In this document: positions 8,237-28,431 of the stretch, piece after piece
Layout of the letters: each line of letters begins with the position of its first letter
Position numbering within the stretch: the stretch's first letter is position 1
DNA from: Myxococcales bacterium
GTDB taxonomy: Bacteria; Myxococcota_A; Polyangia; Fen-1088
Direction: 5' to 3'
DNA length: 41,640 bases
Assembly: GCA_003158455.1 (NCBI GenBank)
Contig: PMJO01000125.1
Span: forward strand, 1-41,640
The notes under the pieces: generated by a model
What the model was told of the DNA's origin: nothing
The model's database searches: none
The model's input: only the letters and a program-made list of their open reading frames with translations
Translations under genes and position numbers: made by a program

Positions 8237-8264
8237 CACATGGTGACAACTCAGTTGTCATGTG
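8237..8264. promoter_or_regulatory. inverted repeat overlapping the kinase gene stop
   Basis: TGACAACT-C-AGTTGTCA (8244-8260) is a perfect 17-bp palindrome. It extends outward to CACATG/CATGTG with a 3-nt bulge and overlaps a second palindrome, TGTCAC-ATG-GTGACA (8234-8248). The TGA stop of the kinase gene (8258-8260) lies inside it. No T-run follows on either strand, so an operator for the downstream small gene or a 3' mRNA hairpin is as likely as a terminator. Confidence 0.45.
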
Positions 8265-11200
8265 GCTATGTGATACCGACGTAGTTTCTTCTGCAAGCCG
8301 AACCGCGAAAGGCCAAGGGCCTTGGCTGCCTTGGTCTGGTTTCCGCCACAGTTGGTCATGGCTTCGCGAAGCAGCGTCCGTTCTAACCTTTCCACGCGAG
8401 GCCGCAGGCGGATTCCGTCTCGCTCGTCGGCCAGAGCGGCAGCCGGATCGGACCCGGCCCGCACCTGGGGTGACAGGTCAGCCACGGTCACGACTGGGCC
8501 GGAAAAAGCCGCCGCACGCGTGATCTCATTTTCCAGTTCGCGCACGTTTCCGGGCCAGCGATAGCAACAAAGGCTGGCCATTGCCGAGACGTCAACCGAC
8601 TTGACGGCAGTGCCAGACGTCGCAGCCGCCTTCTGCATGAAGTGCTGCACGAGCAAGGGTACGTCCTCACTCCTCTCTCGCAACGGAGGCAGTACCAGGC
8701 GGACGACGGATATTCTGAAGAAAAGGTCCTGCCGGAACTTGCCCTGCGCCAGCAAACGCTCCAAGTCCTTGTTGGTCGCCACCAGAACCCGGACGTTCAC
8801 TTTCTGCGGGCGTTCACCTCCCACACGATGAAATTCCCCATCCTGGAGCACACGCAGAAGCTTGCCCTGCATGGCGGGCGACATCTCCGCGACCTCGTCA
8901 AGAAACAAGGTTCCGCCGTCCGCCACGGCAAACAGGCCGCGCGTCTCTCGATCAGCGCCGGTGAAGGCGCCCTTCACATGGCCAAAGAGGGTAGACTCGA
9001 GCAGAGTTTCGGGAATCGCCGCGCAGTTCTCAGAGACGAAGGGCCGGTCGCGACGAGGGCCGTTGAAGTGGATGGCACGGGCAACCAATTCCTTGCCGGT
9101 TCCGCTCTCACCTTCGATGACCACGGGCAGAGCCGTGTCGGTCACCCGATCGAGCAGGTGAAACAAGTCCAGCATGCGTGGGGTTTGCCCCACGATCTGG
9201 TGATAGTCGTAGCGCAGAGCCGCCACCTGGCGAGTCTCTTTCAGCTCCTCACGAACCCCCTGCAGCGCCTGCTCTTGCACGCGCAGTTCGTGCTCCAAAC
9301 GCCGGTTCAGGGCCTGGACCTGGTTTTCTCGACGGCGAAGCTCCGACACCAACCGCGCATTCTCGATGGCGATGGCGGCCTGCTCGGCAAAGTCCATGAC
9401 CATGGCCAGCGCCTCGTCATCGAAGACACCTTTGCGCAAACGATGGTCCACGTAGATCGTCCCCACCACGGCACCCTTGACTGACAGGGGCACCGCCAGC
9501 ACTGAACGAAGATGCAGATCGCTCACCGAAGCCGCTTCCTGGAAGCGACGATCTCCCGCAGCATCCACGGTGACCACAGGTTGCCCGGTCTCCGCCGCCT
9601 GTTTGGCGATGGAGCGAGACAGGACGAAATCAGGCGCATCCAGGGTGGTCTGCTCGATGTTGCGCGCTACCTTCACCACCAACTCACCTGAGCCATCCTT
9701 GAGCAGGAGAAACCCCCGTTCCGCGTCCGTCATTTCGATGGCGGTGTCGATGACCGCTTCGAGTACCCGCGGAAGGCGCAGATCGCTGTTGAGGCGCTTG
9801 TTGATGCGCTGAAGGCGGCGCAAGCGGACCTCGACCCTGGTTGCCCGTTCGACCAAGAGTGCAGTCGCAGTTCGTGCGTCGCCGGACGCCAGGCTGGCGG
9901 AGGGTGCCTCGGGATCACGGTCGAGGCCGGAGCGATACTGGGTGGGCGTGTTCATCCTGACCTCCTCGAAAATGCGCGCAGCGCGGGTCTGTTCATCCCG
10001 AGCGCTGGAATCGCCAGCCCGAGTGAGAAGCCGCGATGCTAGGTGCGCGGCCTTCCAGGCAGCGGGCCGGCGCCCATGCGCCAGAGCCGCGTCCACCAAA
10101 GCCGACAAACCGTGGCCAAGTTCCCCATCGCTTTCCGCGCTTTGCCCTGGCATGGCCAAGACTATGCGAGCCTGTGCCAGGGCAAGAATCTCGTCGCTCG
10201 CGGACGCGGCGCCGGACGAGGCACCGAGGTTTGCCATGGTTGCGCGGATCCGGCCACATGCCCTGAGGGCCTCCGCGGCCTGTCCCGCCTCAGCCAGGGC
10301 TTCGGCCCGGGCGAGCCCACTGGCAAAGGCCATGGGCTGATTCCCTGCGTGCGCAAAGGCCTCCTCGGCAGCGAGGTAAAGCGGCAAGGCGATACGAGGT
10401 GCGCCCTGGCGGCGTGCGATGTCGGCATCGAGCGATGAGGCGAAGGCAAAGAAGGCTTCCGCCTTAGCTGCGTTCGCTTCGTTGCGCAGGCGACGGGCGG
10501 TGCGGCTGGCGGCCTCCAGGTCTCCTAGCTGAAGGAAGAGTAGGCCCGTGTTGTAGAGCGCCAGGGCAAGATCGGTCACAATGCCCAGGCGGCCAAGATC
10601 ACGGAGCGCCCGTCGGAAAGCGTCGAGCGCTTCGCCGAACTGGCCGGTTTCAGCCAGAACACATCCCAGGTTGAAGACGGCGGCTGTCTGGCCGTGGACA
10701 TCGTGAAGCTCGTCGCAGAGGCGGGCCGCCTCCCGATAGGATTGGGCGGCAGGGGTCGGCTGGCCGGCCAGTTGCCAATACAGCCCGCGCAGAGCCGGCA
10801 CCCGGGCGGCAAGCGGCCGATCGGGGCAGGTCTCGGCCGCCTTTTCCAGTGCCACGATCAGGGAATCTGCCTCGCAAAGCCGCCCCGCATAGGTCAGCGC
10901 CAGGGCAGCAGCTTCCTGTGCGAAAAGCCCGGCATCGGAGGACTCCCCCAGCGCGGGCTCGGCTGCCTGCAGAGCCTCGGAGTAGAGACCGCAAGACACC
11001 AAGAGACGAGCCAACCGTGCACGCAGTCGCAAAACCTGGGAACCCCGCGGCCCTGCCAGCAACCCCACCTCCTGGAGGGCGATTTCGAGCACCTGCCGGG
11101 CGGCGACCGGATCCCCGCGCCGTCCCAGCAGCCAAGCCCGACGCTCTGCCAACTCGGTCTTGATCTCCATCGTCCCGTCCGGCGGTGGCTCGTCCAAGAG

Positions 11201-13318
11201 CGCGAGCGCGTCGTCGTACTGGCCCACTAGCCCCAAGGCTGTGGCCCAGGCGATGTGTTCAGACAGTGTGCCGGCCGTGGAAACGGCAGCCCGGGCGCGC
11301 ATCGCGAACCGGGCTACCTCTCCGAAGCGGCCAGCCTCGCCCGCGGCCCGCGCTGCAGCCCCAAAACAGGTAGCTGCTTGTTGCATCTCTCCCAGCGCCA
11401 GGTGCGCCTCGGCACGCCGAGGATCTGACTCGGACAAAGTCTGAATGGCCCGATGTGCGAGGGGATGCAGCGCCTTGTCACGCTTGACGCCGCGAAAAAC
11501 CGCAGCTGCGTGGGATTCCGTGGGAACCGTCAATTCCGCGCCCCCCAACCACCCTGCGCTCTGGGCCTCGCGCACAGCGATGGCAGTGTCCAAGTCAGCG
11601 ACGGGCTTCGGCGAATGCGCAAGCACCGAGGCCGCAAGCCAACCGCGCGTGTTTTGGCTCAGACCGGCGAACGTCGTATCCAGCAGGTGGCCGAAGTCGG
11701 CATCATCCTGGTCGACCCGGAATGCCTCGGCCCGGCCTTCGCGAACCTGTTGTACCCAGCGACGCACAAGCAACGCGGCCGAGGCCGCGAGTCCCCCGGA
11801 CGCGCGCACGATCTGCTCTACCACTTGGGAGGTGGGCTCGCTCCCTGCCGCCCGACTGGCGAGGGCGCGAATATCCTCGGCCTGCAGCGGCCCGAGTTGA
11901 AGATCGACGACCTCGGCGCTGCGCAAGGCCTGCTCAGCGGGCAACATGACGAACAGCCTGCCCCCGGGTGATCCTTCCGCCACTGCCTGGGCGACCAGTT
12001 CCTCTTGCTTGCCTGGTCCAAGCACCAGACACAGAGGACGCTGCTGCGCGCGCGCCTCAAGCGCATCGACCAGTGCGGCCGTGCGAGCCTGTAACGAACG
12101 GGTGGGCTCGTCCCAAGGGGGAGTTGGCTCGCCAGGGGTGGCGGGCAGGTCGGCTTGCAGCGCCGACAACCCGCGCTCGTCCACAGTGAAGGGCGGCAAG
12201 GTCTGCGAAAGCAGGGCCAGCCGCGCATCGCGAAGAACCCGCCGGATCAACGTACGACGGCCGGATCCAGGTGGACCGGAAACAGTCGCCACGGCGGCCG
12301 GGGCATTCCCTTCCGCGAGTCGTTCCAGCAGCGCCCAGAGTGCTTGCTCCTGCTGGGCGCGGCCAACGAGGAACCCCGCCAGTGGATCACCGGCTGGATG
12401 CGGAACGGACAGGTCCAATTCGACCGGAGTGACGTTGTCGGGAAGAATGCGACGAATCTCCCGCAGCAGGTCGCGCGCGCTGGCAGGCCGTTTTTCGGTC
12501 GCGACAGCCAGCAAGCGGCCTAGCAAAGTGTCCCAGTCTGCCGGCAAACCCGGACAAAGCGAGGATGGCGCTGGCGGCGGGCCTTCCATGAGACGACGAA
12601 CAGCATCCATTCCCGCGCCGAATGGCGGCACGCCCGTCCAAGCCGCGTACAGGGTCGCTCCCAGACTGAATAGATCAGCCGCTGGGCCGCGCTCACCAAC
12701 CAGAGCCTCAGGCGCGATGAAACCCAAGGTGCCTGAGGCACCTGCCGCCACGATCCCCAAGCCTTCGGGGGCTCCGGGCACCGGGAGCAGGCGTTCGGAC
12801 AACCCGAAGTCGATCAGCACGGGGCGACCTTCATGGTCGCAGCGCACATTGGCAGGGCTGATGTCGCCGTGGACAAGGCCACGGCCGTGCAAGTAGGCCA
12901 CGGCATCAGCCAGATCCTCGGCCGCAGCGGCGAAGCGACGAAAGCGATCTTCGCCATGGGCCGCGGCCAGATGCGCCGCCAAGTCGGGCCCGGAGAGCTG
13001 GTCGGTCACCAGAAAGAGTCGGCCCGCCAACTCCCCTTCGGAGATCCGTCCCGTGTCCCGAACCTTGACGATGCCGCGGTGGCCGAGTTCGCTGAGACGG
13101 CCAAACTCATCGAGCAAGCGTGCGATAGTGCCCGGCTCCAACTCGGCGGGAAAGAGCTTCACCGCACAGGGTGCGTGGTCGGCCAAGTCCTCGGCAGCAT
13201 AGACTTCGCTACTGGCTCCCACCCCGAGTCGTGTGCCTAGCCGATAGCGATCCGCGACCAGGGGCCACGGGCCATTGCCCGCCCCACTCGATGTGCCAAC
13301 TTCATTGACTGCTACCAC
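8258..13318 (-). CDS. Ser/Thr kinase - ATPase - TPR - GAF - sigma-54 activator fusion
   Basis: This 1686-residue cytoplasmic signalling protein joins a kinase to a sigma-54 enhancer-binding activator. The protein kinase domain (about 25-290) has glycine loop GVGASSEVY, K54, a catalytic loop HGDISPAN (D152, N157) and DFG at 170-172. The usual Arg of HRD is Gly, making it a non-RD kinase. A STAND/AAA-like domain follows (about 315-560) with a degenerate P-loop GPPGSGRRT (348-356), in which the Walker Lys is Arg. Residues 640-1120 are TPR-like helical pairs. A GAF domain spans about 1175-1325 and a coiled coil 1325-1370. The sigma-54 AAA+ domain (1374-1600) is intact, with GESGTGKE (1403), GAFTGA (1450) and a Walker B at GGTLFLDE. 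A Fis-type helix-turn-helix (NQTKAAKALGLSRFGLQKKL) ends the protein. The predicted role is activation of RNA polymerase-sigma-54 promoters under control of the kinase, TPR and GAF inputs; targets are unknown. The start is GTG 13318, about 2 nt from the predicted transcription start. Confidence 0.93.
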   Translation of the reverse strand: MVAVNEVGTSSGAGNGPWPLVADRYRLGTRLGVGASSEVYAAEDLADHAPCAVKLFPAELEPGTIARLLDEFGRLSELGHRGIVKVRDTGRISEGELAGRLFLVTDQLSGPDLAAHLAAAHGEDRFRRFAAAAEDLADAVAYLHGRGLVHGDISPANVRCDHEGRPVLIDFGLSERLLPVPGAPEGLGIVAAGASGTLGFIAPEALVGERGPAADLFSLGATLYAAWTGVPPFGAGMDAVRRLMEGPPPAPSSLCPGLPADWDTLLGRLLAVATEKRPASARDLLREIRRILPDNVTPVELDLSVPHPAGDPLAGFLVGRAQQEQALWALLERLAEGNAPAAVATVSGPPGSGRRTLIRRVLRDARLALLSQTLPPFTVDERGLSALQADLPATPGEPTPPWDEPTRSLQARTAALVDALEARAQQRPLCLVLGPGKQEELVAQAVAEGSPGGRLFVMLPAEQALRSAEVVDLQLGPLQAEDIRALASRAAGSEPTSQVVEQIVRASGGLAASAALLVRRWVQQVREGRAEAFRVDQDDADFGHLLDTTFAGLSQNTRGWLAASVLAHSPKPVADLDTAIAVREAQSAGWLGGAELTVPTESHAAAVFRGVKRDKALHPLAHRAIQTLSESDPRRAEAHLALGEMQQAATCFGAAARAAGEAGRFGEVARFAMRARAAVSTAGTLSEHIAWATALGLVGQYDDALALLDEPPPDGTMEIKTELAERRAWLLGRRGDPVAARQVLEIALQEVGLLAGPRGSQVLRLRARLARLLVSCGLYSEALQAAEPALGESSDAGLFAQEAAALALTYAGRLCEADSLIVALEKAAETCPDRPLAARVPALRGLYWQLAGQPTPAAQSYREAARLCDELHDVHGQTAAVFNLGCVLAETGQFGEALDAFRRALRDLGRLGIVTDLALALYNTGLLFLQLGDLEAASRTARRLRNEANAAKAEAFFAFASSLDADIARRQGAPRIALPLYLAAEEAFAHAGNQPMAFASGLARAEALAEAGQAAEALRACGRIRATMANLGASSGAASASDEILALAQARIVLAMPGQSAESDGELGHGLSALVDAALAHGRRPAAWKAAHLASRLLTRAGDSSARDEQTRAARIFEEVRMNTPTQYRSGLDRDPEAPSASLASGDARTATALLVERATRVEVRLRRLQRINKRLNSDLRLPRVLEAVIDTAIEMTDAERGFLLLKDGSGELVVKVARNIEQTTLDAPDFVLSRSIAKQAAETGQPVVTVDAAGDRRFQEAASVSDLHLRSVLAVPLSVKGAVVGTIYVDHRLRKGVFDDEALAMVMDFAEQAAIAIENARLVSELRRRENQVQALNRRLEHELRVQEQALQGVREELKETRQVAALRYDYHQIVGQTPRMLDLFHLLDRVTDTALPVVIEGESGTGKELVARAIHFNGPRRDRPFVSENCAAIPETLLESTLFGHVKGAFTGADRETRGLFAVADGGTLFLDEVAEMSPAMQGKLLRVLQDGEFHRVGGERPQKVNVRVLVATNKDLERLLAQGKFRQDLFFRISVVRLVLPPLRERSEDVPLLVQHFMQKAAATSGTAVKSVDVSAMASLCCYRWPGNVRELENEITRAAAFSGPVVTVADLSPQVRAGSDPAAALADERDGIRLRPRVERLERTLLREAMTNCGGNQTKAAKALGLSRFGLQKKLRRYHIAT

Positions 13319-14346: not shown

Positions 14347-15486
14347 TCAGCCGCCCCGACGCGCGCCCGCCGGTGCGAAACCTCTGCCCGCGGGCAGGGA
14401 TTCGCCCTGGGTATCGAGATCAGTTTCACTCGGTGGCTCGGCCAAGGGAATCGGGGTCTCATCCAGACGCCGGGCGAGAGCCAAAGCCAAGAGTCGCAAG
14501 ATCACGTCCTTGTATGAGAGCCCGCCCGTCTTTGCCGCCCGGGAGAACCCTCCCGCCAGGTCAGAAAGATCACAATTGGGGTTCACGTCGATGACGTAGG
14601 GCGTGCCATCGGCGGCCAGACGAATATCCATGCGTCCGTAGTCGCGCAGACCTATGCAACGAAAGGCCTGCAGGGCCGTCTGGGCCACCTTGTCGCGCAG
14701 CTCAGACGACAGGCCTTCGCAGCGGACCGGCCGGGTGCCCTTGTACTCAACCGAATCCTCCACCCACTTGCCTTCGAACGACACGATCTTGGGCCGGTCG
14801 GGTGGCATGGCAGAGAAGTCGATCTCGAAAAACGGGAAGATCTGAAGTCCGCCGTCAACCTGTCCCAGCAGGGACACGTAGATCTCACGTCCTTCGATGT
14901 ACTCCTCGACCAGCGCTGGCTGGTGGTAGCGCTCAAGGATATGCAGGACGCGCGCGTTGAGCGCCTTCTCATCGCTGACCACCGACGCCCGAGTAATCCC
15001 GACCGAGGCGTCCTCGCGCGCCGGTTTGACGATGAGAGGAAACCGCAGGGTCAAACCAGCCAGATCGCCTGTCTCAGACACCAGCGACCCTTTCGGCACC
15101 GGAACGCCGCGGGCTGAGAGGATGTCTTTCACCTTTTCTTTGCGCAGCGCCAGGGACAGGGCAAACGGTCCTGAACCCGTATAGGCGATCCGCTCCAACT
15201 CCATGAGCAGCGGCAAAAGGCTCTCGAAGCGGTTGTCCCCATGGATCGACTCGCAAAGATTGAACACTGCTGCCGGCTTGCACGCGCGCAACTCGCTCAC
15301 CGCGCCCGCCACGTCGCTGGTCACCCCCAACCCGGATGCCTCATAGCTGTTCGTCGCGAGGATGCGGACGATGTGGTCCGCAATCTCCTTCACATCCTCG
15401 CGCGCTTTGTTCTCGGGATCCGATTCGGCTCCCTCGAAGTCACGATTGTAGATGACTACGATCCGCGGCCTGGTCCGTGCCTTCAC
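14347..15486 (-). CDS. ATP-grasp ligase, D-Ala-D-Ala ligase-like
   Basis: The protein has 379 residues with the D-alanine-D-alanine-ligase type ATP-grasp fold. The N-terminal domain (RIVVIYNRDFEGAESDPENK) carries FNLCESIHGDNRFE. The ATP-binding region has FPLIVKPAREDASVGI (nucleotide Lys) and VEEYIEGREIYVSLLG, and the metal site is GRMDIRLAADG...VIDVNPNCDLSD, with a conservative Glu-to-Asp change. The key residues are therefore present and it should be an active carboxylate-amine ligase. The substrate is unknown; it is not necessarily D-Ala, because the sequence departs from true Ddl. The start is GTG 15486, overlapping the lipB stop as GTGA, so translation is coupled to lipB. A Pro/Glu/Arg-rich tail of about 40 residues follows the domain. 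A second, degenerate relative lies at 17.9 kb. Confidence 0.87.
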   Translation of the reverse strand: MKARTRPRIVVIYNRDFEGAESDPENKAREDVKEIADHIVRILATNSYEASGLGVTSDVAGAVSELRACKPAAVFNLCESIHGDNRFESLLPLLMELERIAYTGSGPFALSLALRKEKVKDILSARGVPVPKGSLVSETGDLAGLTLRFPLIVKPAREDASVGITRASVVSDEKALNARVLHILERYHQPALVEEYIEGREIYVSLLGQVDGGLQIFPFFEIDFSAMPPDRPKIVSFEGKWVEDSVEYKGTRPVRCEGLSSELRDKVAQTALQAFRCIGLRDYGRMDIRLAADGTPYVIDVNPNCDLSDLAGGFSRAAKTGGLSYKDVILRLLALALARRLDETPIPLAEPPSETDLDTQGESLPAGRGFAPAGARRGG

Positions 15487-16205
15487 GATGCTTCCATCAT
15501 TCTAGTCAGTGGCGCTGTCCAATTGCAACCGGTAACACGCGCCTCTAGTAGTTGTACACCAAAGTTCTTCTCAAACAAGCCGATGAGAGATCGGGCTACC
15601 ATTTCCGGTGGGTGCACCCTCCCGATCTCCCGGGCCAGCGACGTCACACCTGCGCTTGGCAGGCCACAGGGAATGATGGCCGAAAACCCAGCCAGGTCGA
15701 TGGCAAGGTTGAGAGCGAAACCGTGGGTGGCGATCCCATGTCGCACGTGCACCCCGAAAGCACATATTTTGTCGGATCCGAGCCACACCCCAGGGGTCGA
15801 CGCGCGCCACTCGGCCGCAAGTCCGAAGCCGGCAAGCCACTCGACTATGCTCGTCGCCATGGCCTGCATGTGGGCGCGTACGCCCCGGTGCAGCCGGAAG
15901 ACGGGGTAGCCTACAAGCTGACCCGGTCCGTGGAAGGTCACGTCGCCACCGCGTGACGTCCGGCAAATATCAATGCCCCGAGCGCGCAAGACCGGGATGG
16001 GAAGCAGCACATGGGCCGGGTCGGCGTGGCGGCCCAACGTGATTACGGCCGGGTGCTCGAGCAGAAGCAGGGTATCCCGCCTGCGGCCGGCCAAGATCTC
16101 GTTCCGGATCTGCTCTTGCAGCTCCAGTGCCGGCCGATAGGCAACCCGACCCAACCACGACCATTCGGCCGCGGCCTCCGCTTGGGAACGGCAGCCTGCG
16201 GCCAT
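15483..16205 (-). CDS. lipB: octanoyl-[acyl-carrier-protein]:protein N-octanoyltransferase LipB
   Basis: LipB transfers octanoate from acyl-carrier protein to the lipoyl domains of 2-oxoacid dehydrogenases and GcvH, the first step of lipoate synthesis. The protein has 240 residues, normal for the family. It contains LLLEHPAVITLGRHAD, then TSRGGDVTFHGPGQLVGYPVF, then the catalytic Lys in SDKICAFGVHVRHGIATHGFALN and the catalytic Cys in IIPCGLPSAGVTSL. The ATG at 16205 was chosen because the longer in-frame version runs into the upstream gene and adds non-family sequence; GAGG lies about 10 nt upstream. It starts 5 nt after the stop of the HARE-HTH gene and overlaps the ATP-grasp gene by 4 nt, so it sits inside a tight operon. 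LipA is not in the window. Confidence 0.95.
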   Translation of the reverse strand: MAAGCRSQAEAAAEWSWLGRVAYRPALELQEQIRNEILAGRRRDTLLLLEHPAVITLGRHADPAHVLLPIPVLRARGIDICRTSRGGDVTFHGPGQLVGYPVFRLHRGVRAHMQAMATSIVEWLAGFGLAAEWRASTPGVWLGSDKICAFGVHVRHGIATHGFALNLAIDLAGFSAIIPCGLPSAGVTSLAREIGRVHPPEMVARSLIGLFEKNFGVQLLEARVTGCNWTAPLTRMMEAS

Positions 16206-16210
16206 GGGCA

Positions 16211-17806
16211 CTAGCCCTCGGAGATTTCGACGAAAAAGTCCGCGTCGACAAAATCGACATTGACCACGGCGCCGATGACACCCACCCCGTGGCGGACACA
16301 GGTCTCGGCCAGCGCCGGACCGTCCACCACCTCCACTGGCGCGCCCGACTGCTTCCACTCCGCGATGGCGTCGTCAGCCAGCCGACCGGCAAGGACAAGT
16401 GCCCCTTCGTCCTGGTTGCGGGCGCGAATGCCCGCGCGCAACTCGCCCAGCGCCCGACGGCCGGCTGCCGCGGCGCTTGGTCGCAGGGCGATGAGGCAAC
16501 GCGAAGGCCGGAAACCCCGGCCTCGCAGCGCTTCTAGGTAGATCGTGCCCTCGACCCGCTTGACGAAAGTGGCAGGGCCGAAGCCCTCACGCTGCAGAAG
16601 GACGCGGGCCACGGCCTCAAAAGCCGCCGGGCTCAATTCCCCCAAGCGCTGCTCGAGCGCAGCCAAGGTGCGCTCGCGCAAGGCTTTCCTAGCTTCGCCC
16701 AGCACGAACTCGGCTCGCTCGAGATCACTGTCCGGCGGGCGGCGGGCCAAGGCGTACAGCCCGCTACCCGCTGGTCGCACGCGGGGCCGCTGGCCGGCGC
16801 GCAGTCTCTCCTTGCCCTCGGCCGCAAGCGCGGCTCGCATGACCCGCCACGCCTCGTTGGGCTCGCCGTGGATGAGCCTCCGGCGGACCGCCGCATCCGC
16901 GATCTGACGCACGTGCAACCCGCGGCCAGGGGCCTGGCCTCTCAAGATCTCGATGGCTGCATCGATGGGCGAGCTGATCTTGCGCCCCTGCTGGGTGGGC
17001 GTCCCGGACGCGCCCTCTCCTGCCGGTGAGGACGCCTGCGCTGCCCCTTCACCGGGGCCGGACGGCTGGCCGGCGGCGCTGGGCGGCTCCGTTCCGACGG
17101 TTGCTGCTCCCGAAGTCGGCAGGGCTTCGCCTCTGCCTGCCACGACCACCTCCCGCCGTTCGTCCTCTTCGTTGCTCGCGGTACCATCCTCGTTGCGGGC
17201 CACGCCCGCATCGCTGTCATCGCCGAGAGACCCTGCTTGCGCAGGCTCCTCTGCATCCCTGTCGTCTCCGTCGCCTTCCAGCACCCCGCTCTCAGCCAAC
17301 GCCGCTGCGCGCGCCTCAGGGGACAGCGAGCCGATCTGGGGTTCCTCAGGCGACTCGCTCCCATCCCGTTCCTCCACCCCTTCAACCGGACTTGCTCCCT
17401 CGGTGGCAGTCTCACCCGCAGCGCCATTCGGCGCCCCGTCCTCGCTCGGCGAGTCGCCACGCCCGCGCCGACGTCCCCGACCTCCCCGTCGTCGTCGGCG
17501 CCCGCCGCGCGCTTCGCCGGCAGCCGCCCGGGTTTCTCGCGGTTTTTCCGGTGTGGCTTCCGGTTCCGGTTCGGCAGGGGCCTCCGGATAGCGCAGCAAC
17601 CCGAAGACACCCGGCTTCACCCGCACGAAGGGACTGCCCGGGGCTTTCTTCACAGCGGCAGTAAGCTGGGTTTGCATGGTGACTTCGGGGGTGCGCCCCA
17701 CGAAGGTAAGTAGCTTGCGCTCAGTGGCCTTCTCGGTGAGTTCCTTGAAGTGAAGAGGCCGGCGCTCACGCTTTAGAATCTCGAGGGCTGCTTCCAAGAA
17801 AGTCAT
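16211..17806 (-). CDS. double HARE-HTH protein with degenerate Mrr-like C-terminal domain
   Basis: The protein has 531 residues. An N-terminal HARE-type winged helix (1-75: MTFLEAALEILKRERRPLHF, then a VRVKPGVFGLL end) is followed by an Arg/Gly-rich basic patch (100-117) and an acidic, disordered linker (118-275). A second HARE-like domain spans 278-357 (SSPIDAAIEILRG to GSGLYALARR). The last 150 residues resemble the Mrr-cat restriction endonuclease fold: LSPAAFEAVARVLLQREGFG, a central strand pair, ALVLAGRLADDAIAEW, VEVVDGPALAETCVRHGVGV. The acidic and Gln/Glu-x-Lys catalytic positions of Mrr seem replaced (GTIYLEA and LIALRPS), so it is probably not a nuclease. HARE domains are proposed to read modified DNA or couple to chromatin-like factors. 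This is the first gene of the lipB cluster. The function is inferred and unproven. Confidence 0.8.
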   Translation of the reverse strand: MTFLEAALEILKRERRPLHFKELTEKATERKLLTFVGRTPEVTMQTQLTAAVKKAPGSPFVRVKPGVFGLLRYPEAPAEPEPEATPEKPRETRAAAGEARGGRRRRRGGRGRRRGRGDSPSEDGAPNGAAGETATEGASPVEGVEERDGSESPEEPQIGSLSPEARAAALAESGVLEGDGDDRDAEEPAQAGSLGDDSDAGVARNEDGTASNEEDERREVVVAGRGEALPTSGAATVGTEPPSAAGQPSGPGEGAAQASSPAGEGASGTPTQQGRKISSPIDAAIEILRGQAPGRGLHVRQIADAAVRRRLIHGEPNEAWRVMRAALAAEGKERLRAGQRPRVRPAGSGLYALARRPPDSDLERAEFVLGEARKALRERTLAALEQRLGELSPAAFEAVARVLLQREGFGPATFVKRVEGTIYLEALRGRGFRPSRCLIALRPSAAAAGRRALGELRAGIRARNQDEGALVLAGRLADDAIAEWKQSGAPVEVVDGPALAETCVRHGVGVIGAVVNVDFVDADFFVEISEG

Positions 17807-17914
17807 GACTACCCCGTCTCTACCACAAACTACGCACGCGTGGCGTTGGGGTCTTTCACTTGAGCAAAAAGCAGGTTTTTTGACGATGCCCCGCGCAGGC
17901 GTTACCCGTGAGGC

Positions 17915-18916
17915 ATGAGTTCTGCGCGCAAGATCGGAGTGCTCCTCGGTGGACTTTCGCTAGAACGGGATGCTTCCGTCCGGGCCGGCGAGGCCGTCAT
18001 GGCAGCCCTGCGCAAAGCGGGCCACGAGGTCCAAGCTCTCTTTGTCGATCGTCACGTCGACATGGCCCTGCGCCAGTCGGGAATAGAAGTGGCCTTTCTG
18101 GCCGTGCGTGGCCGCTATGGCGCCGATGGCTGCCTGCAGGGGCTGCTGGAGATGCTCGCGATTCCCTATACCGGCTCGGGCGTGCTGGCCTGTGGCTTGG
18201 CCATGAACCGCGCCAAGACCAAGGACATCCTACGGCTGCACAATCTGCCCACCGCGCCCGCCTACCTGATTCGCTCTGCGCAACAGGACAGCATCAGCGC
18301 GGTTCACGGTGCTTTTGGTTTTCCCGCGGTCGTGCGATCGGTGGGTGCGACGCTTCTCTCTGGCGGGACCCTGGTGCGCGACGAGATGGAGCTAGAAAGT
18401 GCGCTTGAGGGCGCATTTGCTCTGAACGACGAGGCTCTGGTTGAGCGGTTCTTGCCGGGCAGGCCGATCTGCGTGCCGGTTCTTGACGGACAGGCTCTGG
18501 GCGCCGTGGAGGTGTCCCGCACCGGATCCTGGACCGCACCGCAGTCAACCGGCACGGGCCGGCAGGATGCCTGTACGCCCGCTCGCCTGCCGCCCGCCCG
18601 CGAGGCTTCGGTACTGCGCCTAGCGACCCAGGCGTGCGAGGCCCTGGGGTGCGAGGGCCCGACCTGCGTAGAGATGGTGCTGAGCGAGCGGTTCAACGAG
18701 ATCATCGTGGACGTGGATTCCGCGCCGCTGCTCTTGCCCGAAGCTCCCTTGCCCCGGATGGCCCACGCGGCCGGTCTTAGCTTCGACGACTTGGTGGAGG
18801 AGATTCTGGCGGGCGCCCGGCTGCGTGCCCACGGAATCAAGCGCAATCGGCGCACGCTACACAGTACATTCGACGGTCCAGACCGCCGGGCGGATGCCGC
18901 ACCGGCCGCGCATTGA
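17915..18916 (+). CDS. D-Ala-D-Ala ligase-fold protein, probably catalytically inactive
   Basis: The protein has 333 residues. The N-terminal domain matches Ddl well: GVLLGGLSLERDASVRAGEAV, FLAVRGRYGADGCLQGLLEM, IPYTGSGVLACGLAMNRAKTK. From residue 130 on, the key sites are altered. The ATP-binding Lys is Arg (AVVRS, 141), the Gly/Ser loop GSSVG is missing (GATLLSGG), the Arg-x-Asp metal site reads CVEM, and the final E-V-N-T-x-P-G-M motif reads DVDSAPLL. It is therefore a Ddl relative that has lost ATP- and metal-binding residues, or a highly diverged enzyme. The start ATG 17915 has GTGAGG immediately upstream. It is divergent from the HARE-HTH gene (108 nt apart) and precedes the AsmA-GT51 gene by 83 nt. 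A palindromic repeat lies within its coding sequence. Confidence 0.8.
   Translation: MSSARKIGVLLGGLSLERDASVRAGEAVMAALRKAGHEVQALFVDRHVDMALRQSGIEVAFLAVRGRYGADGCLQGLLEMLAIPYTGSGVLACGLAMNRAKTKDILRLHNLPTAPAYLIRSAQQDSISAVHGAFGFPAVVRSVGATLLSGGTLVRDEMELESALEGAFALNDEALVERFLPGRPICVPVLDGQALGAVEVSRTGSWTAPQSTGTGRQDACTPARLPPAREASVLRLATQACEALGCEGPTCVEMVLSERFNEIIVDVDSAPLLLPEAPLPRMAHAAGLSFDDLVEEILAGARLRAHGIKRNRRTLHSTFDGPDRRADAAPAAH
18551..18581. repeat. REP-like palindrome inside the Ddl-like gene
   Basis: GGCACGGGCCGGCAGGATGC continues to CTGTACGCCCG. The arms CGGGC (18555-18559) and GCCCG (18577-18581) enclose GGCA-GGA-TGCC. It encodes the low-complexity insert TGTGRQDACTPARL, at a place where Ddl proteins have their substrate loop. 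The words GGCAGGATGCCTGTAC resemble dispersed palindromes seen in many bacteria, from memory only. Only one copy is visible in the window. Confidence 0.3.
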
Positions 18917-18999
18917 TCCGGAGGCCCGCCGCCGTCCACCCGGTCCCTCAACCAACTACGAGTGTCCGAGAGGCGTTACTAGCGGTACCATAGTGCCGC

Positions 19000-21075
19000 T
19001 TGCGCTCCACATCCCGCCGATACGTTCTTCTGGGGGTCGCGGCCCTGGCTGTTCTGGTCTTGGTGCCCGCGGGCATCGCTCTGTGGAACAGGATGACTGT
19101 GCCGTGGTTTCGCCTGCGCTTGGAACAGGCGATCGGGCGCCAGGTGCGGGTGGAAAGCCTTGGCATAAGCGGGCTGCGCACCCTGGTCGCGCATGGTGTG
19201 GAGGTCTTCGGGGCGCCCCCGTTTGACTCAGAACCGATGCTGCGTGCCGAGCGTATCGTCGTGCGCCTGGGCGGGCCGGACCGTGGATTCTGGGATCCCG
19301 CCGAAGTGACGGCGGATGGTCTTGACGTCGAATATCTGCGGACGGCAACCGCCGACAATTTTTCCGGTCGGCGGCCGGCGACGGCCCCATCCCCAACGGC
19401 GGGCGGTCGCCGACTTCCCCGCGCAACGCCGATTGCGTTTTCCGTCCGCAGGGCACGAGTTCACGGCACGGTGGTTCTGCCGGGCGGATTGCGGGTCGGC
19501 TTTCGCACGCCCGATGCCAGCTTCCAACGCTCACCCCAAGGCAAAGAATCGGCACTGCTGCGAGATCTTGTGCTTGAGATCGGCGATGCCGCGACCCTGC
19601 GCTTGCCTGAGGTCGCGCTGGCGAGCGTGCGCGGCGTGCCGGTGACTGCGACGGGGCGGCGAGTCAGCTTGGCGACGCCCGGCGGTGGCGTCTTCGCCGA
19701 AGACGCTACAGTGGAGGCACGCTTCGCCGGGCAGGGAGTGTCGATCGAGCTGCGCACCGACGACTCAGCCGGCGCATCCCCGGACCTGCGCATCTCTTGC
19801 CGGACCGCGGGGGATGTGGCCGACCTGCAGGTGGAGGCACGCGATTGGCCCCTGCGTGCGCTTGACGTCATCGCGTCGCCGCGCGGGCTGGGACTGGTGC
19901 AAGCGCGTACCGACCTCCACGTGGTGGCGTCCCTCGACATGGAGCGAATGGGGGTTGCTTTTCAGGTGGACGGCGAGCTTCGCGGGCTGCATGTGCACCA
20001 TCCGGCGGTTGACCGGACGCCTTGGCGCGACGTCGGCATAGAGATCCATGCCAGCGGTCATGCGACGACCGCGGCTGGTCGGGTCGAAATCGAGGCCGCA
20101 GAGATACGCGCATTAGGCGCCCAACTGAACCTCAAGGGCTGGGTCGAGTTGCTGGGAACGCCACGCGGCGAGCTCACCGTCAGCACGCCGCCCGCGGCGC
20201 CCTTGCCTTGCGCCACCTTGCTCGCAGCCCAAGCACAGCCTGTCCGGCAGGCACTGGAAGGCCTAGTCTTGGGCGGAAAGCTGGGGGTTTCCGTCGCCCT
20301 TTCTTTCGACGCCGCGGCCTGGGAAACCATGGCTCTCGACGTTCGTGTCAGTCCACGCTGCACCGTCAAGAGTGAACCACAGGTGCTGGCCGGCTTGGCC
20401 CCGACCCTGCTGCGGGGGACACCCAGCGGCCCCTTGGCGCCTCACCTGCCCCTGGGCAGGTACCATCCCGATTTTGCCCCCCTGGCCGAGATGCCCAAAC
20501 ACCTGCCGGCGGCTTTTCTCACCTCGGAAGATAGCCGGTTCTTTGCCCATGACGGCTTCGACCTCGAGACCATCCGCCATGCTTTGGTACAAGATTTCGA
20601 GACCGGCAGTTTTGGCCGCGGGGCCAGCACCATCACCCAGCAACTCGCCAAGAATCTGTTTCTCACTCCCCATCGCACCTTGGCGCGAAAACTGGAGGAA
20701 ACCGTGCTGACCTGGCGTTTGCACAGTCTCCTCAGCAAGGAACGTATCCTTGAACTCTACTTGAATGTGATCGACCTCGGCCCGGGAATTCGCGGTGTGC
20801 GCCAGGCCGCGCGCGCCTACTTCGGGAAGGAGCTTTCCCAACTCCGGCCCATCGAGTCCGCCTACTTGGCGGCGCTGACGCCCAACCCGCACGTGTTGGC
20901 GCGGCGTTTTCGCGATGGCCACGTCGACGACGGCTGGCTGCAGAGACTGCATGACCTGCTGGCGATGATGAAGCGCAGCGGCCGTCTCACGGCGGAAGAG
21001 CTGGTTGCTGCCCGCAAGAGCAGGCCGGCGTTGCGTAGAATTGACAAGGAGATCACGCCTCGGCCAGGCTTGTAG
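19000..21075 (+). CDS. AsmA-like domain fused to GT51 peptidoglycan glycosyltransferase
   Basis: The protein has 691 residues. A membrane anchor (about 7-30, YVLLGVAALAVLVLVPAGIAL) is followed by an AsmA-like, mostly beta periplasmic region (about 35-470), with the family-typical opening VRVESLGISGLRTLVAHGVEVFGAPPF. The C-terminal 200 residues are a glycosyltransferase family 51 domain, which polymerises lipid II into glycan strands. All four motifs are visible: SEDSRFFAHDGFD (E510), GASTITQQLAKNLFL (541), KLEETVLTWRLHSLLSKERI and GIRGVRQAARAYFGK. There is no transpeptidase domain. The only in-frame start before the membrane segment is TTG 19000, since a stop lies at 18991. It lies downstream of the Ddl-like gene on the same strand, possibly co-transcribed. 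AsmA-like regions elsewhere take part in lipid transport or envelope assembly; here that is inference. Confidence 0.88.
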   Translation: MRSTSRRYVLLGVAALAVLVLVPAGIALWNRMTVPWFRLRLEQAIGRQVRVESLGISGLRTLVAHGVEVFGAPPFDSEPMLRAERIVVRLGGPDRGFWDPAEVTADGLDVEYLRTATADNFSGRRPATAPSPTAGGRRLPRATPIAFSVRRARVHGTVVLPGGLRVGFRTPDASFQRSPQGKESALLRDLVLEIGDAATLRLPEVALASVRGVPVTATGRRVSLATPGGGVFAEDATVEARFAGQGVSIELRTDDSAGASPDLRISCRTAGDVADLQVEARDWPLRALDVIASPRGLGLVQARTDLHVVASLDMERMGVAFQVDGELRGLHVHHPAVDRTPWRDVGIEIHASGHATTAAGRVEIEAAEIRALGAQLNLKGWVELLGTPRGELTVSTPPAAPLPCATLLAAQAQPVRQALEGLVLGGKLGVSVALSFDAAAWETMALDVRVSPRCTVKSEPQVLAGLAPTLLRGTPSGPLAPHLPLGRYHPDFAPLAEMPKHLPAAFLTSEDSRFFAHDGFDLETIRHALVQDFETGSFGRGASTITQQLAKNLFLTPHRTLARKLEETVLTWRLHSLLSKERILELYLNVIDLGPGIRGVRQAARAYFGKELSQLRPIESAYLAALTPNPHVLARRFRDGHVDDGWLQRLHDLLAMMKRSGRLTAEELVAARKSRPALRRIDKEITPRPGL

Positions 21076-21091
21076 TGCTACTCTTTTCGTC

Positions 21092-21643
21092 ATGACCATT
21101 CTGCGTAGTGTTGCTCTGGGCCTGCTTGTTTCTTTGATTCCATCCCTGGCAGTGGCCTCACTGGTCCAAGCCATGGATCTCGCTGAGTTGACCGCCCGAG
21201 CAGATCGAATCGTCGTTGCCCAGGTCGTATCGACAAACAGCGAATGGGATTCCTCCGGCCGAAATATCCACACCCGCATCGAAATCACGGTCGAGGAAAC
21301 TTGGAAGGGGTCGCTCGCGGTCGGCCAGCGCACGATCATCGTTCAGCCGGGTGGCAGCGTGGGCGATATCGAAATGCGCGTCCACGGCATGCCCAGCTTT
21401 GCGCCGGGCGAGAAGGCGGTGCTCTTTCTCGCCGGCCAGGGCGCGCCCCGGGTGGTGGGAATGAGCCAGGGCAAGCGCCCGCTGCTTTGGGACGGCGCGG
21501 GCAAGCGCTGGGTGGCCGAAGCCGCCGAGCACTCCGCGGTGGTGCGACGCGATCCCCAGGGGCGCCTGCAGCCAGTACCCCCTGAGCCTGCCTTGGGTTT
21601 GGATGAGCTTCGCCAGCGCGTGCGCGCGCTGGTCGGACGGTAG
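21092..21643 (+). CDS. small secreted protein of unknown function
   Basis: The protein has 183 residues with a signal peptide (MTILRSVALGLLVSLIPSLAVA). The mature part is predicted mainly beta: IVVAQVVSTNSEWDSSGRN, ITVEETWKGSLAVGQRTIIV, EKAVLFLAGQGAPRVVGM. I have seen similar proteins only as hypothetical proteins in myxobacteria, often near secreted matrixin proteases, and cannot assign a function. The ATG at 21092 is chosen because the upstream in-frame sequence is not signal-like. It lies 16 nt after the GT51 fusion gene and 19 nt before the matrixin gene, so an operon with the protease is likely, and a chaperone or inhibitor role for the protease is a possibility. Confidence 0.65.
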   Translation: MTILRSVALGLLVSLIPSLAVASLVQAMDLAELTARADRIVVAQVVSTNSEWDSSGRNIHTRIEITVEETWKGSLAVGQRTIIVQPGGSVGDIEMRVHGMPSFAPGEKAVLFLAGQGAPRVVGMSQGKRPLLWDGAGKRWVAEAAEHSAVVRRDPQGRLQPVPPEPALGLDELRQRVRALVGR

Positions 21644-21662
21644 CAAGCCCGGAACATTTCCT

Positions 21663-22595
21663 ATGCGAAATCGCACAAAGCTTGTCCTGATCGCCTCTGT
21701 GGCAGGCTTCGCGGCCCTGCCCAGACCTGCCGCAGCCTATGTCCGTACCACGACCAGCACGGGCATACCCATTGCCTGGAAGGCCCCCTGTGTGAAGATT
21801 GAGTTCTCCCTGGGTGATCCCCCGCCCGAGCTGAAGGCCGCGGGATATCTTGATGCCGCCACGCAGGCGGGCGCGGCCTGGAGCAATGCCTCGCTCGACG
21901 GAGTCGATCGCTGTACCAACGTGATCTTCACCGTGGAGTCGTTCTCATCCGTCGCCGGCCCGGTGGGCATGGATTACCACAATCGCTTGATCTTCCGACA
22001 AAACAGTTGGTGCCGCGATCCCCCGCCGACCGATCCCAACGAGCCCGATTGCTATGACCCAAGCGCTTTGGCCATCACCACCGTCTTCCAACTCAGAAAC
22101 ACCGGAGAAATCCTGGACACCGACTTGGAGTTCAATGCCACCGACTACACCTGGAGCGACTACGTGGGCCATCCCGACCAGTTTGGCTACCTCACCCAAG
22201 ACTTCCAGGGCGCGCTTACCCACGAGTTCGGCCATGTGATCGGCCTGGATCACACCTGCGTCAGCCCGGGGACATCTTCGGACCGGTGGCCGGTGGACAA
22301 CAATGGCAACCTAGTGCCCGCTTGCAGTTCTGGCAACCTGCCCGCAACCATCACGGGTGCCACGATGTACGTCTCAGTTGCCTCGCCCAGCGCGGAAGTT
22401 GAACTGCGCAGCTTGTCGCCCGATGACGTGCAGGGCGCGTGCGATATCTATCCGTTCACGAGCAACTTCGTCTGCGTCGCTCCGACGAAAGCCCAAGCAA
22501 GCAGCGGCTGCTCCTACGCCGCGCAACCCGGGCGAGGCGCTATCGTCTGGGTGCTGGCATTCCTCGTGCTGGCGACGATCCGCCGTCGGCGCTAG
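21663..22595 (+). CDS. matrixin-type metalloprotease with MYXO-CTERM-like tail
   Basis: This secreted zinc protease has 310 residues. The signal peptide is MRNRTKLVLIASVAGFAALP onwards. The active site HEFGHVIGLDHT (187-198) is the metzincin pattern HExxHxxGxxH, with His187, His191 and His197 as zinc ligands and Glu188 as base; matrixins and astacin-like metzincins share it. The last 32 residues (GCS, then a helix IVWVLAFLVLA, then RRRR) match the MYXO-CTERM or GC_trans_RRR sorting signal of myxobacteria, which anchors or exports surface proteins; only one Cys is present. Five Cys residues earlier may form disulfides. The final 56 bp overlap, antisense, the end of the next gene. Confidence 0.87.
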   Translation: MRNRTKLVLIASVAGFAALPRPAAAYVRTTTSTGIPIAWKAPCVKIEFSLGDPPPELKAAGYLDAATQAGAAWSNASLDGVDRCTNVIFTVESFSSVAGPVGMDYHNRLIFRQNSWCRDPPPTDPNEPDCYDPSALAITTVFQLRNTGEILDTDLEFNATDYTWSDYVGHPDQFGYLTQDFQGALTHEFGHVIGLDHTCVSPGTSSDRWPVDNNGNLVPACSSGNLPATITGATMYVSVASPSAEVELRSLSPDDVQGACDIYPFTSNFVCVAPTKAQASSGCSYAAQPGRGAIVWVLAFLVLATIRRRR

Positions 22596-26386: not shown

Positions 26387-27220
26387 CTAGCCCATAGCGG
26401 CGCGCAGGTCGGAAACAAATGCCTCCAGTGCCGGCACCGGATCGCGACCTGCGGCCACGGCTCGCTCGATCACGCGGACGGCGGCGCTGCCCACCACCAC
26501 GCCGTCGGCGAACCCGGCCACCGCCCGCGCATCCGCCGGCGTGGCAATCCCGAATCCCACGGCGACCGGAAGCCGGCCGCCCGACAGTTCGCGCACCTGC
26601 CGCACGCGCGCGGAGGTCTCATCCAGGTTGGGAAGTTGACTGCCCGTGATGCCGGTCAGCGAGACGTAGTAGAGAAAGCCGCCCGCGACCGCGGCTATCG
26701 CCTTCACCCGCTCGGGGGTGGAGGTGGGCGCGATGAGCGGGACCAGGTCCAGAGCATGCTGGGCGAGCGTCTGGGCCAACTCGGGATCTTCATCGGGCGG
26801 CCAGTCGACGCACAACACGCCGTCGGCGCCCGCCTGCTTGGCTTGCGCGGCGAACTTCGCGGTGCCGCGCACGAAGATCGGGTTGGCATAGCCGAAGAGC
26901 ACGACCGGAATCTCCGGGTTGGCCGCGCGCACAGTCCGGCACAGATCCAGGGCCTTGGCCATGCCCCCGCCCGCAGCGAGGGCCCTGCGCATGGCCGCCT
27001 GAATGGCCGGCCCGTCAGCCGATGGATCGCTCCACGGCACGCCCAGTTCCAGCACATCCGCGCCGGCTTGCGCTGCGGCCAGCAGGAGACGGCGACTGGT
27101 GTCGAAATCTGGGTCGCATCCCGTGAGGTAGAGGACCAGTGTCTTGCGGCCTTGTGCGCGAGCCCGCGCAAAGGCACCGGCTATGCGCGACGGGAAAGGC
27201 CGGCCCGGCGTATTCGTCAT
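26387..27220 (-). CDS. trpA: tryptophan synthase alpha subunit
   Basis: The protein has 277 residues. TrpA cleaves indole-3-glycerol phosphate to indole and glyceraldehyde 3-phosphate, passing indole to TrpB. The catalytic Glu is in [16 protein letters not shown], with the catalytic Asp in the same motif, and the phosphate site is [19 protein letters not shown]. The usual ...AGDP segment reads LTGCDPD, a small departure. The ATG at 27220 overlaps the trpB stop as ATGA, so translation is coupled. A much longer in-frame upstream reading runs through trpB and is not real. Confidence 0.96.
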
Positions 27221-28431
27221 GACGACACCTCCGCGCCAAAGTGTTTGGCGATGGTGCCCATGTCCTTGTCGCCTCGGCCCGAGATGTTGATGATCACGCT
27301 CGCCCCGTCGGAAAGTTGCTCGGCCACGCGCGGCAGTCCTGCCACCGCATGCGCGCTCTCCAGGGCCGGGATGATGCCCTCGCAACGGGCCAGCAAGCGA
27401 CACGCGGCCAGCGCCTCCTGGTCGGTGGCAGACAGGTACTGGGCGCGTCCGCTGTCGCGCAGGTAGCTGTGCTCGGGCCCGACCCCTGGGTAGTCGAGGC
27501 CGGCCGAGATGGAATGGGCCTCGTCTATCTGGCCGTCGTCGTCGCACAGCACGTAGGAGCGTGCGCCGTGCAGGACGCCCGGCCGGCCCTTGCCCAGGGT
27601 GGCAGCATGGTGTTTGGTATCGATACCCTCGCCCGCTGCTTCCACGCCATAGAGCCGTACCCCGGGATCGTCGATGAATCCGCGAAATAACCCCATGGCG
27701 TTGGAGCCGCCGCCGACACAAGCCAAACACGCGTCGGGCAACCGACCCGTGGCAGCCTGGATCTGGGCGCGCGCCTCGCGCCCAATCACCGACTGCAATT
27801 CACCCACCATGGTCGGATAGGGATGCGGGCCAGCCACGGTTCCGAGAACGTAGTGGGTGGTCCCCACGTTGGTCACCCAGTCGCGCATGGCCTCGTTCAT
27901 GGCGTCTTTCAGGGTCGCAGTGCCGTCCTTGACCGGGTGGACCTTGGCCCCCAGCAAGTGCATGCGAAACACGTTGAGCGACTGGCGCTCAACATCGACC
28001 GCGCCCATGTAGATTTCGCACGGAAGCCCAAACAGGGCGGCCACCGTGGCAGTGGCCACGCCGTGCTGGCCAGCCCCGGTTTCGGCGATGATGCGCTGCT
28101 TGCCCAGGCGCTGGGCCAGCAGAATCTGGCCCACGCAGTTGTTCAACTTATGCGAGCCAGTGTGGCACAGATCCTCGCGCTTGAGAAACACGCGCAGGCG
28201 GCGGCCCTGAGTCTTTGCCACATGCTCAGCCAGGCGCGCCGCCTCGGTCAGCGGCGTGGGCCGGCCGACATACTCGCGCAGCAACCGGTCCAATTCGGCG
28301 CGGAAAGTCGGGTCGAACGAAAAGTGCTCCCAGGCGTCGGCCAGCTCTTCCAGAGCCGGCATCAAGGTTTCGGAGACGTAGCGACCTCCGTAGGGACCAA
28401 ATCGACCGTGAGATTGGGGAACTATGGACAT
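27217..28431 (-). CDS. trpB: tryptophan synthase beta subunit
   Basis: The protein has 404 residues. TrpB is a PLP enzyme that condenses indole with L-serine to tryptophan. The PLP Lys is in [13 protein letters not shown], the phosphate loop is [10 protein letters not shown], and the substrate site [13 protein letters not shown] is intact. The N-terminus [20 protein letters not shown] is canonical for TrpB1. It forms an operon with trpA; the other trp genes are not in the window. A perfect 10-bp palindrome lies immediately upstream of the ATG and there is no clear Shine-Dalgarno sequence. Confidence 0.97.

Follow-up and report, generated by a model that had tools for sequence, protein, structure and literature searches.

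A stretch of 41,640 nucleotides from a Myxococcales bacterium (hereafter, the window) contains a gene whose product joins a predicted AsmA-like N-terminal region (the N-region) to a C-terminal GT51 glycosyltransferase domain (Table 1). The N-region occupies about 460 residues between an N-terminal hydrophobic segment and the GT51 domain. Many ddl models match the gene immediately upstream, although their scores stay under the NCBIfam cut-offs. The 18 bases that precede the TTG start (18982-18999) are similar across seven same-genus loci, and an ATG or GTG within them is out of frame with the fusion gene; this short stretch is possibly a promoter or leader element.

Table 1. Features of the fusion gene and its upstream neighbor, in window coordinates.
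Feature	Position	Strand	Basis and remarks
D-alanine--D-alanine ligase-like gene (ddl)	17915..18916	+	Pfam above cut-offs; ends 83 nt before the fusion gene
AsmA/DUF748-like + GT51 fusion protein	19000..21075	+	691 aa, TTG start, ORF call
Single N-terminal membrane-helix-like segment, residues about 4-22 from TTG	19009..19065	+	Hydropathy
DUF748-type AsmA-like N-terminal domain (predicted), residues about 8-142	19021..19425	+	Five-relative profile, 21.9 bits
Second half of the N-region, residues 265-492	19792..20475	+	Source of profile A3
Cysteines C404 and C454, putative disulfide ahead of the GT domain	20209..20361	+	Unchanged in 29/29 aligned proteins
GT51 glycosyltransferase domain	20470..20904	+	Pfam match, residues 491-635; candidate catalytic glutamates E510 and E567

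The only Pfam match of the window protein at E ≤ 1 is Transgly (PF00912), with an E value of 1.1e-49 and 168.7 bits against a curated cut-off of 27, and the top PDB matches are the GT51 proteins PBP1A, PBP2, PBP1B, and MGT. The protein carries the GT51 motifs EDxxFxxHxG (residues 510-519), GASTITQQLAKN (541-552), RKLEE (563-567), and KxxILExYLN (580-589). Within these motifs, E510, D511, F514, H517, Q548, K551, N552, R563, K564, E567, K580, Y587, and N589 are unchanged in 29 of 29 aligned proteins; E510 and E567 we take to be the counterparts of the catalytic glutamates in Escherichia coli PBP1b and MGT. Judged from the intact residues and their conservation, the fusion protein is most likely an active GT51 polymerase. 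No transpeptidase domain, as membership in the class A PBPs would require, gave a Pfam match at E ≤ 1 in the window protein; because only 21 residues remain C-terminal of the GT alignment, the transpeptidase is absent. Against the MtgA equivalog model (TIGR02070), the protein scores 149.9 bits, under the cut-off of 182.65.

Assigning the N-region required a route through related proteins. AsmA, YhdP, and DUF748 (PF05359) gave no Pfam match at E ≤ 1 on the window protein or on L005, the paralogue in the same genome. Across that genome, Pfam AsmA produced one sub-threshold match, located elsewhere, and DUF748 none above cut-off. Among the 29 proteins of alignment A1, scanned at E ≤ 1, Transgly was matched in 29, DUF748 in 7 (best E 9.1e-17), YhdP in 2, and AsmA, weakly, in 1. 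When ten relatives were scanned singly, DUF748 was found in five (L018 at E 0.034, L023, L026, L032, and L033), of which L023 (50.5 bits), L026 (50.8), and L033 (60.8) exceeded the curated cut-off of 50 bits; L005, L013, L020, L030, and L035 had no match. A search of 57 genomes of the phylum added L107, L112, L113, L114, and L116, each with an N-terminal DUF748 match above cut-off and, downstream on the same contig in a frame of equal length, a match to profile A3, which was built from 26 rows corresponding to window residues 265-492. The one of these five that was rechecked, L112, has GT51 in its DUF748-bearing frame (that of L081). In four genomes (G036, G044, G227, and G235), a second, weaker DUF748 stretch (positions 447-622, E 4.6e-7 to 4.9e-4) overlaps the A3 match.

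To bridge from these relatives to the window, we used a profile of the DUF748-matching stretches of L018, L023, L026, L032, and L033, none of which comes from the window's family. This profile scored 21.9 bits on window residues 8-142, where 2,000 shuffles of that region reached at most 7.7, and the orthologues L036, L007/L037, L038, L040, and L039 scored from 20.7 down to 9.7. The paralogue L005 (30.2) and L030 (27.6) scored higher than the window; L014 (4.5) fell inside the shuffle range, and L013, L015, and L041 were not in the best 40 rows. DUF748 and DUF3971 have themselves been related to AsmA and TamB by profile comparison (Heinz et al. 2015, PMC4494059). When a 54-row profile of the N-region was compared by hhalign with single E. 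coli sequences, AsmA (E 0.014) and YhdP (0.016) ranked ahead at a probability of about 3%, YdbH and TamB gave 0.13-0.16, scarcely better than the 0.19 of reversed YhdP, and eight unrelated E. coli sequences gave 0.35-0.92. Hydrophobicity autocorrelation over residues 32-485 (z of -5.3, +2.7, and -2.7 at lags 1, 2, and 3) indicates strand-type alternation, with signs that match those of E. coli AsmA, YdbH, YhdP, and TamB and differ from those of the protein's own GT domain and two controls. Such alternation is not specific to AsmA-like folds; beta barrels would probably show it too. Profile A3 retrieved three PDB matches (E 0.028-1.7), all unrelated proteins, and the first half of the N-region is poorly conserved in sequence across the 29 aligned proteins.

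The earlier note had described this locus as an AsmA-like region in front of a GT51 domain with its motifs and no transpeptidase. The GT51 part of that description and its position were correct. The AsmA-like label holds by way of the relatives, several of which exceed the DUF748 cut-off and whose profile reaches the window, and not by any Pfam match on the window protein itself. Because the relatives match DUF748 and the five-relative profile extends to the window, with hhalign and the alternation concurring weakly, the sequence comparisons support a DUF748-type AsmA-like region, probably beta-rich, fused to a monofunctional GT51 domain.

Hydropathy points to one membrane anchor at the N terminus. 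The segment, which spans residues 6-24 in stop-to-stop frame numbering, reaches 1.75 in the window protein versus a threshold of 1.7, a marginal value, and 1.84-2.56 in six same-genus orthologues. A crude hydropathy test covered 49 fused frames in which 400 residues or more lie ahead of GT51; a TM-like segment preceded the GT domain in 40 of them, and 9 had none. No frame (0/49) had such a segment ending in the 60 residues ahead of the GT domain. The distance from segment to GT domain had a median of 484 aa and ran roughly from 400 to 720 residues in frames having a segment, L015 aside; in that truncated frame, the sole TM-like hit lies within the N-region and is probably false. In L032, a hydrophobic stretch (592-610) lies at the very start of the GT match. 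The conserved cysteines C404 and C454 probably form a periplasmic disulfide.

AlphaFold 2 models were built from seven sequences (the window protein and L036-L041), for the whole protein and for residues 26-272. Their pLDDT values of 33 and 39, respectively, are very low and allow nothing to be interpreted beyond secondary structure, which in the whole-protein model comprises a helix (residues 4-30), many strands up to residue 453 together with a few helices, and then the GT51 helices. In models of this confidence (pLDDT 33-39), the secondary structure is compatible with a chorein-type helix followed by long strands. A hydrophobic groove, which the earlier note had proposed to look for, was not modeled in either of these very low-confidence structures. 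Foldseek with the second, poor model returned no match at E ≤ 0.001; the top matches, LptD and LptA, had E values no better than 0.04, and an N-terminal fragment of Vps13 came at rank 32 and TamAB at rank 45. None of these is significant, and none is counted as evidence here.

Each module of the fusion has known counterparts, from which the whole differs in distinct ways. Like MtgA/MGT (GT51; TIGR02070), the fusion has GT51 without a transpeptidase; in E. coli MtgA, however, 63 residues precede the GT alignment, versus 491 in the window's stop-to-stop frame, where the AsmA-like module lies between. In E. coli MtgA, MrcA, and PbpC, the GT alignment begins after just 63-67 residues, which places the helix of these proteins near the GT domain. 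E. coli PBP1b carries the UB2H regulatory domain between its membrane anchor and GT51. With 212 residues before the GT alignment, PBP1b (MrcB) thus resembles the fusion in having an extra periplasmic domain at this place, whereas the fusion lacks a transpeptidase, has a larger and different insert, and has a GT51 domain from across a well-supported branch of the tree (see below). UB2H itself gave no match at E ≤ 1 in the window protein or in the 29 aligned proteins. With AsmA, YhdP, TamB, YdbH, and DUF748 proteins, the fusion shares an N-terminal hydrophobic segment, a DUF748-type domain, and strand-type alternation. Its N-region is nevertheless shorter than E. coli AsmA (617 residues), TamB (1,259), YhdP (1,266), and also YdbH, and unlike these proteins, the fusion ends in a GT51 enzyme.

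Phylogenetic analysis placed the fused GT51 domains with MtgA. Of 67 domains collected, three partial ones were left out, and the resulting tree of 64 included 52 from fusions. These 52 lie on one side of a branch whose support (90/34) is not firm. A branch with support of 100/96 (starred) splits them and E. coli MtgA from the sampled class A PBPs; MtgA itself is a long branch (1.66), and its exact position is unsure. Within the fused set, 30 rows form clade B (94/87, not starred), which includes the second fusion of the window's genome; the other 22, the window among them, form a remainder without resolved grouping. Origin by loss of the transpeptidase from a class A PBP was considered and rejected, as the fused GT51 domains lie on the MtgA side of the starred branch, away from the class A PBPs sampled. 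The genome has five GT51 places. Two are the fusions, and the other three are frames of 816-860 aa in which 487 residues or more follow the GT domain, making them class A PBP-like by length. It also contains two SEDS polymerase genes. Given these three frames and two SEDS genes, the fusion protein is most likely an accessory polymerase.

The architecture recurs widely. Full-length orthologues with 75-85% identity were present in six of six same-genus genomes searched, and full-length or nearly full-length orthologues in G010, G015, and G017, from another genus of the family. Nine loci came from scanning named genome contigs, three of them GT51-only in Bacillota and six full-length, all from "Myxococcales bacterium isolate fen_..." MAGs; because the scores are identical, these are evidently the six same-genus genomes. 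Profile A3 matched 181 of 192 genomes of the class and 115 of 188 in a phylum sample that includes class members, counts that refer to the N-region, with GT51 confirmed for chosen loci and not for every match. GT51 was present in the same frame as the A3 match in 17 of 17 hand-picked loci outside the class. The A3 match was absent from some fairly complete genomes (e.g., G134, G183, and G188). Among plasmid records, 534 gave a match, but in none did a single place cover 80% of the query. This wide A3 distribution therefore makes the fusion a general feature of these bacteria, in which it is probably old.

A recent local fusion or an assembly artifact was also considered and rejected, given the orthologues in all six same-genus genomes and GT51 in the 17 out-of-class loci. 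In one orthologue (G008:C6:289734-290906; L016/L049), the AsmA-like half and the GT51 half lie in different frames, with one in-frame stop reported; this may be a pseudogene, a sequencing error, or a natural split.

A recurrent neighbor is ddl. Outside clade B, 17 loci, the window included, have 1 kb or more of upstream sequence, and in 15 of these ddl lies upstream on the same strand; the two without it are L053, within the class, and L091, from outside the class. Apart from L049, the split orthologue, ddl either overlaps the fusion frame or is separated from it by no more than 182 nt. No ddl is present in any clade-B locus viewed. Of six loci of the class that belong to clade B, three have a class A PBP-like frame downstream on the same strand, at 47 nt for the paralogue in the window's own genome, 11 nt in L030, and 2,143 nt in L062; no such frame occurs in the available flank of the clade-B loci L056, L059, and L061. 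No lipid-transport or outer-membrane assembly gene is found among the neighbors mapped.

Other genes surround this pair. Beside the fusion gene lies a cluster made up of ddl and genes for a HARE-HTH and Mrr-type nuclease domain protein (16211-17806, minus strand), a lipoyl ligase-like protein (15483-16358, minus strand), and another ATP-grasp protein, which matches Dala_Dala_lig_C (14347-15486, minus strand). Genes similar to this cluster (14347-18916) recur together in L049, from another genus of the family, and in L060 and L063 (family f12), so that a nuclease-type protein sits within a conserved housekeeping context. Two genes follow the fusion gene (21005-22595): the first encodes a small protein without a Pfam match, and the second contains HEFGHVIGLDH and has weak, sub-cut-off matrixin-like matches. 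As this pair also trails the fusion gene in L013, L036-L041, L047, L048, and L049, the family keeps a longer gene block.

We favor a reading, with a probability of roughly 60%, in which the fusion is an accessory GT51 polymerase carried on an AsmA-like stalk that serves mainly for positioning and docking. One N-terminal helix would anchor the protein in the inner membrane, and a mostly beta DUF748/AsmA-like module of ~460 residues, probably braced by the C404-C454 disulfide, would separate this anchor from the catalytic domain. The C-terminal GT51 domain would polymerize lipid II, and a separate transpeptidase would have to cross-link the glycan product. From its position and conservation, the stalk may fix the site at which the polymerase works, or its height, or may bind a partner or activator; by positional analogy, it would sit where PBP1b has UB2H. 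A fold of a lipid-binding type may also help the GT domain stay in contact with membrane lipid.

Several alternatives were weighed. The N-region could be a fast-diverging, beta-rich spacer that is specific for neither lipids nor partners and resembles DUF748 through shared composition. The poor conservation of the first half, the lack of a Pfam match in the window protein, and the weak hhalign values would suit a spacer, yet several relatives exceed the curated DUF748 cut-off, the second half occurs in much of the phylum, and the two cysteines are invariant in the alignment. The window's profile score lies far above that of the best shuffle, which also speaks against shared composition, and we regard a mere spacer as unlikely. 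Alternatively, one chain could couple two tasks, phospholipid transport by the AsmA-like part and glycan polymerization, pacing the outer membrane with wall growth, in line with the link between lipid-envelope assembly and glycan strand synthesis raised in the earlier note. This is what the domain composition, by itself, would suggest; however, the N-region is much shorter than YhdP or TamB and shorter than AsmA, and the recurrent gene links are with ddl and, at certain loci, with a class A PBP-like frame, with none to outer-membrane assembly among the neighbors mapped. Such coupling therefore seems very unlikely.

Another idea is that the AsmA-like region is a working groove that picks up its cargo, lipid II or the growing strand by its undecaprenyl end, at the inner membrane and delivers it to GT51 out in the periplasm, so that polymerization would occur away from the bilayer. 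The separation of the GT domain from the TM-like segment, by hundreds of residues and with no segment close to the domain in any of the 49 frames, fits this proposal, as does the alternation, which is what a groove lined with hydrophobic residues should show. However, the membrane is where the GT51 jaw is normally seated, and a stalk that folds back would suffice to place it there; furthermore, no groove could be modeled with AlphaFold 2 (pLDDT 33 and 39), and the recurrent neighbors encode ddl and class A PBP-like proteins, with no lipid-transport gene among those looked at. The published kinship of DUF748 with AsmA and TamB (PMC4494059) counts in favor of a groove, which we nonetheless consider improbable. 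Bolder still is a Myxococcota class of polymerases in which the groove hands over lipid II to a GT51 domain held off the membrane, or shields the undecaprenyl end. Were this quite improbable proposal true, an AsmA-family fold would conduct the lipid carrier for wall synthesis rather than phospholipids, and where myxobacteria lack class A PBPs, the enzyme could be a moenomycin target that has been overlooked.

With the fusion, the usual list of SEDS proteins, class A PBPs, and MtgA may gain a GT51 enzyme type that had gone unrecognized. The fusion recurs through much of the phylum, often beside peptidoglycan genes, and would physically link an AsmA-like module to lipid II chemistry. Both modules are known, and their fusion is apparently undescribed: in a search of the open-access literature, with subscription papers and database annotations outside its scope, no title or abstract opening among the matches listed named an AsmA-GT51 fusion, and the words glycosyl, peptidoglycan, fused, and fusion do not occur in the text of Levine (2019, PMC6791001). 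The earlier note had set the fusion apart from model bacteria while allowing that it might prove common in all myxobacteria and already described as a class. Common it is, by the A3 counts, and no description surfaced in the literature searched; by the same counts, the fusion is not peculiar to this genome, which itself holds two.

The fusion may also bear on an observation in Myxococcus xanthus. According to Zhang et al. (2023, PMC10475089), this species has three class A PBPs, and 15.3% (n = 1217) of cells lacking all three lose rod shape under moenomycin, a residual effect for which the authors suggested minor, nonspecific toxicity. The terms "MXAN" and "monofunctional" are absent from the text of that paper. 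If M. xanthus carries a GT51 polymerase outside the class A list, such an enzyme would be a specific candidate for the residual effect.

Two further genes of the window were noted. A 1,686-residue protein (8258-13318, minus strand) combines Ser/Thr kinase, AAA, and TPR matches with GAF, a sigma-54 activator domain, and a Fis-type HTH. In a 447-residue frame at 26387-27730 (minus strand), the tryptophan synthase alpha chain match starts at residue 187, and the long extension in front of it could come from a start-site effect or from a fusion.
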